In this document: positions 24,715-44,172 of the stretch, piece by piece
How positions within the stretch are numbered: position 1 is the stretch's first letter
How the letters are laid out: every line of letters starts with the position of its first letter
Source: Aquimarina intermedia
GTDB taxonomy: Bacteria; Bacteroidota; Bacteroidia; Flavobacteriales; Flavobacteriaceae
Direction of reading: 5' to 3'
Length of the DNA stretch: 64,000 nt
Assembly: GCF_008124785.1 (NCBI RefSeq)
Contig: NZ_VNHU01000013.1
Coordinates: forward strand, 1-64,000
Made by a program: the position numbers and the translations under genes
Notes under the pieces: model-generated
What the model saw: the letters and a program-made list of their open reading frames with translations, nothing else
Told to the model about the DNA's origin: nothing
The model's database searches: none

Positions 24715-26796
24715 ATGAAAAATTTATTACTCTTCGGAGTTCTGATTTTTGGCTCGATCGCAGCAAATGCACAATCTTATATCGGATTTTTATCCGATAA
24801 TTATAGTGGTGTAAATAGTGTAATTGTGAATCCGGCTAATATTGCAGACTCTCGTTTTAAAACTGATATTAATTTAGTTGGCGTAAGTGCCTTTTTAGGT
24901 AATGACTACTACTCTGTAAAATTAGACAACGTTTTTGATAGCGAATTTGATTTTGACGATGATGGCAAGAAATCTCCTAGTGATAACAACAATATTATGG
25001 GTAATGTTGATATATTGGGACCATCCTTTATGTTTAATCTAAACTCAAAAAGTTCGATTGCTGTATTTTCCAGAGCTCGTGTTTTTTATAATGTAAATGA
25101 GGTGAATGGTAAAACCTACGAAAGTATTGAAGATGGTTTTGACAACAATGCTGATTTTAACATCAACGAAAAGGATGTTTTTCTTACCGGAAATGCCTGG
25201 GCAGAAGTTGGCGTGTCATATGCACGTATACTTATGAACAAAGAGCAACAATTCTTAAAAGGAGGTCTTTCGGTTAAGTATATGCAAGGATTAGGAAATG
25301 CCTACGCCAGTGGTAGAGACGTAACTATAGATTACGACGCGGACGGAAGCGGAACTACGGGTAGTATTGCAACCACAGGTGAAGTAACGTACGGGTACTC
25401 TAGTAATGTCGAAGATGATTTTGATGAATTCGAAGTTTTAAGTGGCGCAAATGGTGTTGCGTTTGATTTAGGTTTTGTATACGAATGGAGACCTGACCAT
25501 GCAAGTTATATGGTCACCGACAGTAAAGGAAATACGTATGCTCCCAAAGACATTAATAAGTATAAAGTAAAATTTGGTTTATCCGTTACTGATTTGGGTG
25601 CACTTAAGTATGATGATGCCACTGAAGAGATCTATGATATTACCAATACGGTTAATGAGGATGATTTTGATAACGTTGATGGTTTTCAAGACAAGCTTCA
25701 ACGATTTTATACACGAACTAGTGTTAAAAATGTTACCAAAGCAATTTTACCAACTGCGCTACATCTAACAGCAGATTGGAATATTAATAATCACTTTTAC
25801 ATGAACTTAAACTCTGATCTTTCTTTAACTTCAAAAAACAAGGAAAATACGAGTCGTGTAGCTAATAGCCTGTCATTAACACCAAGATTCGAGAGTAAAT
25901 GGTTTAGTTTCTACTCACCTATTAGTATGATGCAGCACAGTGGCTTTCAATGGGGAGCTGGTTTAAGAGCCGGACCTCTCTATGTTGGATCCGGATCGAT
26001 TCTCTCGTTATTAATTTCTGACGAATCACAAGCTGCCGATATGTATGTAGGGTTAAAAATTCCTGTATACCAAGGTCGATTAAAAGACAAAGATGGTGAT
26101 GGTGTTTTAGACAAAGTTGATGACTGTCCAGAAGTTGCTGGTCCGGAAGAGAACTTTGGATGTCCATGGCCCGATACCGATGGTGACACCGTACTTGACA
26201 AGGATGACTCCTGTGTTGATGTAGCTGGTCCCGTAGAAAATAAGGGATGTCCTTGGCCAGATACTGACGGAGATTCTTTACTTGACAAAGATGATACGTG
26301 TCCGGAAGTAGCTGGACCGGTTGAAAATGGTGGATGTCCTTGGCCTGATACTGATGGAGATTCAGTTTTAGACAAAGACGACAATTGTCCAACTATCGCA
26401 GGTACTGTTGCAAATGACGGATGTCCTGAAGTTACAGATGAGGTTCAAAAGACATTAAATGAGTACGCTAAAACAATATTGTTTGACTCAGGTAAATCAT
26501 CTATCAAATCAGAATCTAATCAGGTTCTAAGTGATATCATCGGTATTTTAAAAGAATATGCGACAGCTAAATTTACGGTAGAAGGTCATACAGACAGCGC
26601 AGGTAGTGCTAAACTAAATCAACGTTTGTCTGATGCCAGAGCTAATGCGGTTAAAAACTATCTAGTTGAAAACGGAATTGATCAATTTAGATTATCAGCG
26701 ATTGGTTATGGTGAGGATCGCCCTATTGCTACGAATAAAACCAGAGCAGGTAGAGCACAAAACAGACGTGTAGAGATTAATTTGGTAAAAGAATAA
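24715..26796 (+). CDS. Outer-membrane protein with DUF5723-like barrel, TSP3 repeats and OmpA domain
   Basis: A 693-residue protein. A Sec signal (LLLFGVLIFGSIAANAQ) is followed by an about 430-residue beta-rich region like DUF5723 barrels. Four 29-residue thrombospondin type 3-like calcium-binding repeats (about 458-571, DTDGDxxLDKDDxC...GCPWP) come next, then a C-terminal OmpA domain (about 585-693; FTVEGHTDSAGS, NQRLSDARANAV, NRRVEINLV). It probably anchors the outer membrane to peptidoglycan with a Ca-stiffened linker, as in other flavobacterial OmpA proteins. It is transcribed separately from the preceding OmpA lipoprotein. Confidence 0.9.
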   Translation: MKNLLLFGVLIFGSIAANAQSYIGFLSDNYSGVNSVIVNPANIADSRFKTDINLVGVSAFLGNDYYSVKLDNVFDSEFDFDDDGKKSPSDNNNIMGNVDILGPSFMFNLNSKSSIAVFSRARVFYNVNEVNGKTYESIEDGFDNNADFNINEKDVFLTGNAWAEVGVSYARILMNKEQQFLKGGLSVKYMQGLGNAYASGRDVTIDYDADGSGTTGSIATTGEVTYGYSSNVEDDFDEFEVLSGANGVAFDLGFVYEWRPDHASYMVTDSKGNTYAPKDINKYKVKFGLSVTDLGALKYDDATEEIYDITNTVNEDDFDNVDGFQDKLQRFYTRTSVKNVTKAILPTALHLTADWNINNHFYMNLNSDLSLTSKNKENTSRVANSLSLTPRFESKWFSFYSPISMMQHSGFQWGAGLRAGPLYVGSGSILSLLISDESQAADMYVGLKIPVYQGRLKDKDGDGVLDKVDDCPEVAGPEENFGCPWPDTDGDTVLDKDDSCVDVAGPVENKGCPWPDTDGDSLLDKDDTCPEVAGPVENGGCPWPDTDGDSVLDKDDNCPTIAGTVANDGCPEVTDEVQKTLNEYAKTILFDSGKSSIKSESNQVLSDIIGILKEYATAKFTVEGHTDSAGSAKLNQRLSDARANAVKNYLVENGIDQFRLSAIGYGEDRPIATNKTRAGRAQNRRVEINLVKE
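26086..26427 (+). repeat. Four in-frame 87-bp TSP3 coding repeats
   Basis: Tandem 87-base units (29 residues each, the last missing WP) encode the Asp-rich calcium-binding linker. The units share near-identical DNA such as GGATGTCC and GACAAAG. Such repeats can change number by recombination. Confidence 0.9.
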
Positions 26797-42441: not shown

Positions 42442-43173
42442 CTATATTTCAGTAACACTCAATATACCCATTGCATAAGTATATAAAAGTCCGACAATCA
42501 TAGCCAGACCAAAACTTAATAAGGTCCCAATCAAAACGTACTCGGTAAGTTTACGGTCTTTGGCTTTTGACAGGTCTCCGAATCTAAAAACTGATTTGGC
42601 GGTTATCAAAAATCCGATAGCTGCCCATTGACCTAATGCGATAAAAGCAAAAACAAATAATCTTTCCAGAATACCGATATATTTGCCTGCTTTTTCAAGT
42701 GAGTCTTTAGCATGATCTTCGTTAAGGTTCCAAGTACTCATTAGTAGCTTCATTATAACAGATGAAATAGAAGTAACCGCGATGATTGCTAAGACTAGAT
42801 ATAAAATTTCAATTGAATACACCCTACTCAGATCTATGGAAAAAGGTTGATACCAATAGACGATACCTGCAATAACAAGTAAATGTGCAAGCTGATCCAA
42901 TAGAAAAAGTAATTTAAAATTCACTTTTTTATCAAGATTTAATTTGATCAGATCAATCAAAAAATGACTAAATACGATGATAAGAATTGCCAGTAGATAA
43001 CGCCTATCAAACGATAGCATACAAAGTAAAGTTACTGCATGTACTAGTGTGTGTAGATACAAAAACAACGACGCCTGCTTTTTTTCCTTTTTATCCGCTA
43101 CCCATGTATCCGGCTGCAGAACAAAATCTCCAAGCACATGAGCAATTATTAATTTCAATACAAGCAACATCAT
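42442..43173 (-). CDS. DUF3307 membrane protein
   Basis: A 243-residue inner-membrane protein. The first 120 residues match DUF3307 (LIIAHVLGDFVLQPDTWVADKK, LYLHTLVHAVTLLCML, FSHFLIDLIKLNL), with conserved His and Asp residues inside or next to membrane helices. Three or more further helices follow (VYSIEILYLVLAIIAV; LFVFAFIALGQWAAIGFLI; LSFGLAMIVGLLYTYAMGI). Function unknown; the buried His/Asp suggest transport or catalysis. Its ATG overlaps the satD stop (ATGA), so the two are translationally coupled and share the operator-controlled promoter at 43786-43866. Confidence 0.88.
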   Translation of the reverse strand: MMLLVLKLIIAHVLGDFVLQPDTWVADKKEKKQASLFLYLHTLVHAVTLLCMLSFDRRYLLAILIIVFSHFLIDLIKLNLDKKVNFKLLFLLDQLAHLLVIAGIVYWYQPFSIDLSRVYSIEILYLVLAIIAVTSISSVIMKLLMSTWNLNEDHAKDSLEKAGKYIGILERLFVFAFIALGQWAAIGFLITAKSVFRFGDLSKAKDRKLTEYVLIGTLLSFGLAMIVGLLYTYAMGILSVTEI

Positions 43174-43775
43174 AGAGTAGCAATTAGGTTTTGATAGTAA
43201 TTGTTTAGATGCATTATTTCATCATAGCCACCACGTTTTAGTGCTTCGCTGATACTACTCTGGGATTTTTCTAAGAGTGTTGCAAGCTCCTTTTGTGTTT
43301 TCTTTGGATGCTCGATTGTGGCTGTAATAACCTCGGCTACAGTACTACTCCATGTATTTGCAGTGAGCAAGGCCAGACTCAGCATAAGATTGAGCGTCTG
43401 ATCATTATGGGCATCATTAGAATTTATAGCGAGGGTTTGTTTACCTAAAGCTTCAAAGGCCTCACCTGAGTTTACATACGCAGGCCCATTAGATTCGGTG
43501 ATGCGTTGTGCCCTATGGGTCTCTGCACCCAGCCCGATAGCAATGCGTACATCTAGCTTTTTATTTTGTTTCATTACTGCTTTTATGTGAAGGGCAGCTT
43601 TTAAAGCATCCTGTGGCATGGTTACTAATTGAAAACTATCTCCTCTAAATAGTTCCCACTGGGTTGGTGTATTACCATAGGTTGTTAGCACCGCTTTCAG
43701 TTTTTGTAACCACTTGGGTGTATCGCTTTCTCTTGAATTAATAATATCACCTGTTAAAACAGCAACCATTCTCAT
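43170..43775 (-). CDS. SatD-family protein with C-terminal helix-turn-helix
   Basis: A 201-residue SatD-family protein (named after an acid-tolerance locus of Streptococcus mutans). The N-terminal half has LTGDIINSRE (7-16), FRGDSFQLV (43-51) and VRIAIGLG (76-83). Their arrangement resembles palm-fold nucleotide cyclase or GGDEF domains, though this is an inference. The C-terminal part (about 155-190; KTQKELATLLEKSQSSISEAL) is a winged or MarR-like helix-turn-helix. With three palindromes over its own promoter it is very likely an autorepressor or ligand-sensing regulator of itself and DUF3307. The effector is unknown. Confidence 0.85.
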   Translation of the reverse strand: MRMVAVLTGDIINSRESDTPKWLQKLKAVLTTYGNTPTQWELFRGDSFQLVTMPQDALKAALHIKAVMKQNKKLDVRIAIGLGAETHRAQRITESNGPAYVNSGEAFEALGKQTLAINSNDAHNDQTLNLMLSLALLTANTWSSTVAEVITATIEHPKKTQKELATLLEKSQSSISEALKRGGYDEIMHLNNYYQNLIATL

Positions 43776-43785
43776 GTATTTGATT

Positions 43786-43816
43786 CAAATATATCGTTTT
43801 AAAAGACGATATCCAA
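43786..43816 (-). promoter_or_regulatory. Promoter of the satD-DUF3307 operon
   Basis: On the minus strand TTG (43816-43814), a 20-bp spacer, then TATATTTG (43793-43786), a perfect Bacteroidota -7 element. The satD ATG lies 10 bp after the box, so the leader is only a few bases. The spacer is filled by operator copy 1. Confidence 0.75.
43793..43810. promoter_or_regulatory. satD operator copy 1
   Basis: ATCGTTTTAAAAGACGAT, an 18-bp palindrome (wider arms ATATCGT/ACGATAT), located between the -33 and -7 elements, the ideal place for repression. Confidence 0.65.
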
Positions 43817-43820
43817 ATAA

Positions 43821-43838
43821 ATCGGCTTTAAAGCCGAT
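43821..43838. promoter_or_regulatory. satD operator copy 2
   Basis: ATCGGCTTTAAAGCCGAT, a perfect 18-bp palindrome starting exactly 28 bp from copy 1, just upstream of the -33 element. Confidence 0.7.
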
Positions 43839-43848
43839 AAATTAATAA

Positions 43849-43866
43849 ATCGGATAGAGAGCCGAT
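43849..43866. promoter_or_regulatory. satD operator copy 3
   Basis: ATCGGATAGAGAGCCGAT, an imperfect palindrome with ATCGG/CCGAT arms, again exactly 28 bp further on. No fourth copy is seen at the next 28-bp step. Confidence 0.6.
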
Positions 43867-44172
43867 ACTTTAATGTAATTAGGCAATTATTGAATCCGGC
43901 ACCTCTTATACATCATAACAATGAATTTTACAAAGGATATTTATTTACGCTCTTTATATCAAACATCATAAAAAATCATTTGACTCAAATATTAAAGTTA
44001 AAACAACCAACTCAAAAGTTTTCTGTAGTTTAGTGGATACTTTAAATCACTCAACCCGAAATGAGTAGCTTAAAATTTTTTAAACTACCTTTTGGAAGTA
44101 AAAAATAGTTTCGAGGGTGATTATGTTATGTAATGTTGTTGTACTACATTGAAAATAAAAAATAATTGAGTT
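43867..44172. other. Gap of about 306 bp without an intact gene
   Basis: AT-rich DNA between the satD operators and a frameshifted gene. It contains only very short frames, for example a 15-codon one at 44061 (MSSLKFFKLPFGSKK). No terminator, RNA gene or clear promoter is visible. Confidence 0.5.

Follow-up and report, generated by a model that had tools for sequence, protein, structure and literature searches.

A three-palindrome array with conserved spacing upstream of satD–DUF3307 in Aquimarina intermedia and its relatives: a probable operator of SatD

Organization of the satD locus

What binds the three palindromes that precede the satD–DUF3307 genes of Aquimarina intermedia, and what would such binding do to the promoter with which they overlap? 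The locus lies on contig NZ_VNHU01000013.1, whose first 64,000 nucleotides (hereafter the window) were analysed, and it comprises the following features:

42442..43173, minus strand: gene of a DUF3307 membrane protein (PF11750, E=3.1e-28), with a 4-bp overlap with the satD stop
43170..43775, minus strand: satD, 201 aa (PF16264, E=1.3e-10), N-domain and C-terminal helix-turn-helix (HTH)
43233..43262, minus strand: SatD recognition helix, residues 172-181 (DSSP helix), coupled to the half-site letters
43245-43247, minus strand: SatD residue 177, within predicted helix 172-181
43786..43793, minus strand: putative -7 promoter box TATATTTG, whose first two bases coincide with the final two of palindrome 1
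43792..43811, unstranded: candidate operator palindrome 1, the promoter-proximal 20-bp site, between the -33 and -7 elements
43814..43816, minus strand: putative -33 element TTG, 20 bp from the -7 box
43820..43839, unstranded: candidate operator palindrome 2, with a perfectly symmetric 18-bp core (43821-43838)
43848..43867, unstranded: candidate operator palindrome 3, distal, with the weakest symmetry of the three

A sequence-only reading of this DNA had reported three palindromes at an exact 28-bp period, and all of them were recovered, beginning at 43793, 43821 and 43849 with a step of exactly 28 bp. The numbers of complementary half-pairs are 7/9, 9/9 and 6/9, respectively, and the middle copy (core 43821-43838) is the sole 18-bp palindrome with 9/9 pairs within the 64-kb window. 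By the family consensus described below, the unit is a 20-bp site (43792-43811, 43820-43839 and 43848-43867) with linkers of 8 bp. Copies 1 and 2 are 79% alike over 28 bp. The position assigned to copy 1 by the same reading also proved correct on the minus strand: this palindrome falls within the 20 bp that separate TTG from TATATTTG, two motifs that we take, by the Bacteroidota promoter consensus, to be the -33 and -7 elements.

Occurrence of the array among SatD homologues

SatD relatives were present in 91 of the 296 order genomes, 218 of the 397 family genomes and 77 of the 296 phylum genomes (the three sets overlap). Within Aquimarina the distribution is patchy, with SatD in 5 of 32 other genomes of the genus. 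Of the SatD matches in the family-level list, five are flagged for a stop codon (TAA in four, TAG in one), which may simply be one close to where the match ends. The pool of 293 loci included 120 fetched regions and the best 80 loci from a search of named genomes with an alignment as the query; a search of the contigs of these named genomes with a single SatD protein gave no match. One locus lay too near a contig end, and removal of identical proteins from the remaining 292 left 250 homologues, which were picked by likeness to the window SatD or its close relatives, not randomly, and among which near-identical proteins are still found. The coupling tests described below used the 215 loci with an array score of at least 30, of which 213 have DUF3307.

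The three-copy inverted-repeat score was computed for the 250 loci at 14 periods; all array scores other than those of this open test allow periods 28 and 29 only. Period 28 was the best or tied for best in 225 of the 250 loci, period 29 was the best in 18 and another period in 7, and the shuffled sequences gave a flat profile. A three-palindrome array (score of at least 30 at period 28 or 29) was detected in 215 of the 250 distinct SatD homologues, and in none of 750 control windows taken elsewhere in the same loci, with base composition unmatched. The top array score was higher than in all 40 dinucleotide shuffles in 225/250 loci. The array upstream of satD is far beyond chance.

The unit of the family is a 20-bp site of the form TATnnn-N8-nnnATA, and three whole convergent palindromes are present in 139 of the 215 arrays. 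Three copies were counted in 172 arrays, four in 38, five in 4 and six in one. Among the 35 homologues scoring under 30, many carry two clear sites and several none. The 29-bp period was observed in 15 of the 215 arrays, 14 of which have the half-site TATAAG, and 12 of which belong to a single family, f5. These twelve loci, all with TATAAG, are L010, L148, L150, L152, L153, L156, L158, L159, L176, L206, L208 and L209. Two loci (L277, L286) come from Kangiella, which we take to be gammaproteobacterial, i.e. of a phylum other than Bacteroidota; both carry the half-site TATACG at a 28-bp step, with array scores of 33 and 36 of 36, and this array may perhaps reflect horizontal transfer of the whole SatD unit.

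The sequence-only reading had proposed, as a check, to look for ATCGGC-like sites at a fixed spacing in satD homologues; taken to the letter, this check would fail in part. The spacing is indeed kept, but the half-site letters drift with the protein: 32 half-site consensus strings, some of them perhaps noise, were distinguished among the 215 arrays. Within a locus (175 loci analysed) the half-sites of different copies show an identity of 0.86, and that of the linkers is 0.54, as compared with 0.49 for linkers of different loci. Since half-sites are kept while linkers are near background, the copies appear to be held by selection and not to be fresh duplications, so that selection on the half-sites explains this pattern of identities better than recent duplication does. 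The conserved feature is the architecture, and it is the drifting letters that point to SatD itself as the binder.

Coupling of half-site letters to the SatD recognition helix

The identity of each residue was correlated with half-site identity over all locus pairs, within bins of N-domain identity. Residue 177, which lies in the predicted recognition helix, gave the highest value of all SatD residues (partial r=0.61) and was followed by residues 171, 170, 13, 174 and 178. The coupling of residues 1-140 had a standard deviation of 0.042 and a maximum of 0.164, and the maximum among 243 columns of DUF3307 (213 loci) was also 0.164. Because the letters of the array covary with the recognition helix far above the N-domain or DUF3307, SatD very probably binds the array, which lends support to the proposal of the sequence-only reading that SatD is the operator-binding protein.

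The pairings at residue 177 could be read as a simple code. Gln177 occurs with A at half-site position 5 (71/71 loci), Lys or Arg177 with C at position 6, i.e. G on the other strand (33/35), and Glu177 with C at position 4 (73/79; 75/81 for Glu and Asp together), the classes C4, C6 and A5 having been defined after the code was seen, with C4 assigned first. Such residue-to-base pairings are chemically sensible. Gln occupies residue 172 in 209 of 213 loci, and 205 of these 209 have A at position 2; the four loci without Gln172 all differ from A at this position (two Arg-G and two Ala-T), the Ala-T pair possibly reflecting a one-base register shift. When position 6 is taken singly, residue 13 (r 0.30) equals residue 177 (0.30). 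At half-site positions 1-3, which hardly vary, N-domain columns couple at 0.25-0.34, the best-coupled residue for the nearly invariant position 3 being residue 27 (0.34). Two loci have an unusual recognition helix, namely L157 (KDKTTVN), which has no array at a score of at least 30, and L161 (KDATTVN), whose half-site is ATTGGC.

The influence of kinship on this coupling was examined in several ways. On a FastTree tree built from the SatD N-domain only, with Fitch ties broken by alphabet, 33 class changes of residue 177 and 34 class changes of the half-site shared 20 of 428 branches, as against 2.6 expected (p 5e-17). Ten of these 20 co-changes went as the code predicts, four (E to K with C4 to A5) were contrary to it and six involved other residues. 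When raw letters were used in the branch test of all 201 residues, residue 174 ranked first, 145 second, 177 third and 171 fourth. Residue 145 (43341-43343) sits outside the recognition helix despite its second rank; it may represent an auxiliary contact or stem from the alignment. Among 43 loci with less than 60% N-domain identity, E/D-C4 was found in 19/21, K/R-C6 in 8/8 and Q-A5 in 5/5, with other residues in 9. At the same level of divergence, the nearest helix predicted 2.13 of the 3 variable bases and the nearest N-domain 1.40, and 300 entropy-matched column sets gave a mean of 1.17 and a maximum of 1.51; the seven helix columns of this prediction test were picked after the coupling scan and are not independent of it. 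Below 50% N-domain identity, the corresponding values were 1.88 of 3 bases for the nearest helix and 0.99 for the nearest N-domain. A permutation meant to keep kinship was uninformative and is given no weight here, as single-linkage clustering collapsed the loci into between one and three groups.

Number of targets per genome

The motif ATCGG-N8-CCGAT occurs at four places in the window assembly (29 contigs), two of them inside the satD array and another at position 117204 of contig C4. The remaining one (24781-24798) was weighed as a possible second target, but because it is a single copy within an OmpA-like ORF (24715-26796), with no tandem partner, it was treated as a chance occurrence. A tandem pair with 0 mismatches is found only in the satD array in the whole window assembly. 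The other 8 forward tandem places need 3 mismatches, and a reversed control pattern also gave 8. In the three genomes searched for tandem sites, i.e. the window genome, G180 (half-site TATTAC) and G111 (TATCTG), the tandem operator was detected at one location, at satD; the control pattern had 0 matches in G180 and in G111. A single target, in which one protein and one promoter have to change, would explain the drift of the half-sites.

Geometry of the promoter

A strict -7 box (TANNTTTG) was identified within 80 bp of the start in 116 of the 215 arrays, the other 99 being without one. It overlaps or abuts the called three-copy array in 66 of the 116 cases and lies outside it in 50. Measured against the palindrome, the box begins at offset 18 in 63 loci, at 16 in 25 and at 17 in 8, which places 96 of the 116 boxes in phase with the array; the -7 box of the window is also at offset 18. 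A palindrome scoring at least 9/12 is present at the register of the -7 box in 74 of the 116 loci and absent from 42, and TTG is found 15-26 bp upstream of the strict box in 66 of the 116. The terminal ATA of the half-sites favours TA at the -7 box, but not the subsequent TTTG.

This geometry is most simply read as occlusion of the -7 box, and repression is likely because the strict box is mostly in phase with the array, overlapping an outer half-site. The block of the promoter suggested by the sequence-only reading gains from the strict boxes, most of which are in phase and over an outer half-site, but it has no such basis in the 99 arrays of 215 that are without a strict box. Cooperative binding of SatD is plausible from the fixed spacing.

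Features of the SatD protein

The family PF16264, in which the window SatD scores 41.7 bits (gathering threshold, 29), presumably takes its name from the satD gene in the sat operon of Streptococcus mutans. In our set, by comparison, a DUF3307-like gene follows satD in the same order and on the same strand in 249 of 250 loci, with a median gap of -4 bp, which makes it a probable operon partner of satD. A search of the open-licence literature, in which the name SatD is covered in part, returned no operator or DNA-binding role for SatD.

The predicted structure (pLDDT 97.7) places HTH helices at residues 161-168 and 172-181, in agreement with the C-terminal HTH previously suspected from the sequence; matches to HTH models were weak. 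The C-terminal part alone gave weak matches to two PADLOC models (best 8.4e-4) and four PHROGs models (best 6.1e-5). The N-domain has a nucleotidyl-cyclase/palm fold according to Foldseek, with 14 PDB matches at E <= 0.001, the top one being the adenylyl cyclase Ma1120 (E 1.5e-4, probability 1.00, TM 0.51 on the target). It therefore resembles class III nucleotidyl cyclases, GGDEF domains and the Cas10 palm in fold (Ma1120, Cmr2) and in two invariant Asp residues. The residues invariant over the 250 SatD proteins include D10, G45, D46, Q49, G83, G97 and G104. D10 and D46, which we equate by motif with the metal-binding Asp residues of class III cyclases, suggest metal-nucleotide binding. Unlike class III cyclases, SatD has a fused DNA-binding domain, and the equivalents of the catalytic Asn and Arg, compared by eye with the class III motif, appear to be variable, which makes catalysis by the N-domain doubtful.

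Proposed mechanism and alternatives

We consider it probable (roughly 0.79) that SatD acts as a one-component transcription factor and regulates itself, with its own operon, satD–DUF3307, as the sole recognisable target, and that the array serves to block the promoter. What was computed directly is the array with its kept spacing, the link between its letters and the recognition helix, its occurrence at one place in each of three genomes, and the phase of those -7 boxes that are strict; from these we infer dimerisation of SatD, cooperative filling of the sites, repression rather than activation, and a signal of nucleotide type. Each dimer would place its two C-terminal recognition helices on the half-sites of one 20-bp TATnnn-N8-nnnATA palindrome, and three or more dimers would be aligned at 28-bp steps across the promoter. 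For the window, this would put the promoter-proximal dimer in the spacer between -33 and -7, in contact with the edge of the -7 box, where it would exclude RNA polymerase and keep the satD–DUF3307 operon repressed. Release would follow a signal, for which the nucleotidyl-cyclase-like N-domain is the probable sensor.

The evidence for SatD as the binder would be the same if SatD activated its operon or switched between activation and repression, either by MerR-like binding of the -33/-7 spacer or by acting from two upstream sites. Two of the three sites of the window do lie upstream of the -33 element, and 50 of the 116 strict -7 boxes fall outside the array as called with three copies. Against this, the box is in phase (offset 16-18) in 96 of 116 loci and overlaps an outer half-site where a palindrome is present (at least 9/12 in 74/116), and we regard activation as unlikely. 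That another HTH regulator binds the array, with SatD a mere neighbour, is very improbable: the half-sites alone could not discriminate between the two proteins, but no point in favour of another regulator was found, the half-site class tracks SatD residue 177 (71/71, 33/35 and 75/81), and the adjoining DUF3307 has no such link.

Still less credit is given to the array as a loading site for a spreading protein of the ParB/Noc type in place of an operator. The HTH region does show a weak similarity to such proteins (E 0.055-0.91), and the fold of the N-domain suggests nucleotide binding; however, all of this similarity is far below threshold (TIGR00180, 13.2 bits vs a cut-off of 58.45), the N-domain has the cyclase/palm fold, and each of the three genomes tested has the array at one location, the satD promoter. 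A functionless tandem repeat resembling a minisatellite is the least probable of all and verges on the negligible. It would account for the exact period and for the 79% likeness of copies 1 and 2 of the window over 28 bp, but the linkers have diverged to near background with the half-sites kept, and the period is constant though the sequence of the unit differs between loci.

If self-regulation by SatD is the correct reading, it would, from sequence alone, show the SatD family to be DNA-binding, name its target and supply a residue-to-base code, in Bacteroidota and in at least one other phylum (that of Kangiella). A nucleotidyl-cyclase-like domain would then act as the sensor of the regulator, giving the search for its signal a concrete starting point. 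The near-constant architecture with its 32 half-site strings also offers many natural pairs in which to follow the joint change of regulator and operator specificity.

In a study of LacI-family local regulators, local regulation pairs factor with operator across genomes, and the code is carried by a pair of residues in the factor and a pair of bases in its site (PMC2978694). The use of local regulation to pair factor and operator is common to that work (PMC2978694) and ours, and it serves as a precedent for the present approach. SatD differs from the LacI family in its sensor domain, in having an array of at least three operators spaced by a constant 28 bp, and in its main coupling at one residue, 177, as opposed to two.

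A bolder extension, which we hold as tentative and give less than even odds, is that nucleotide-gated one-component repressors form a class founded by SatD, where a metal-keeping cyclase/palm domain controls the side-by-side assembly of dimers and so sets the dose of DUF3307. The N-domain would bind or make a nucleotide signal, and DUF3307 would be the regulated product, a membrane protein of unmatched fold. With a single target, protein and operator could drift freely, and the family would record the change of DNA specificity.

Features of the DUF3307 protein

The DUF3307 model (pLDDT 93.2) is predicted to be all-helical and found no counterpart in the PDB at E <= 0.001, the best E-value being 0.89. 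The protein matches phrog_2470, a phage membrane-protein family (E 9.3e-16); a tblastn search of phage records at E 1e-3 gave no match to the window SatD or DUF3307. Residues H12, D16, Q20, H41, H45, H70, D74, D93, Q94 and H97 are near-invariant over 246 sequences, and this set of His, Asp and Gln suggests a metal site in the membrane.
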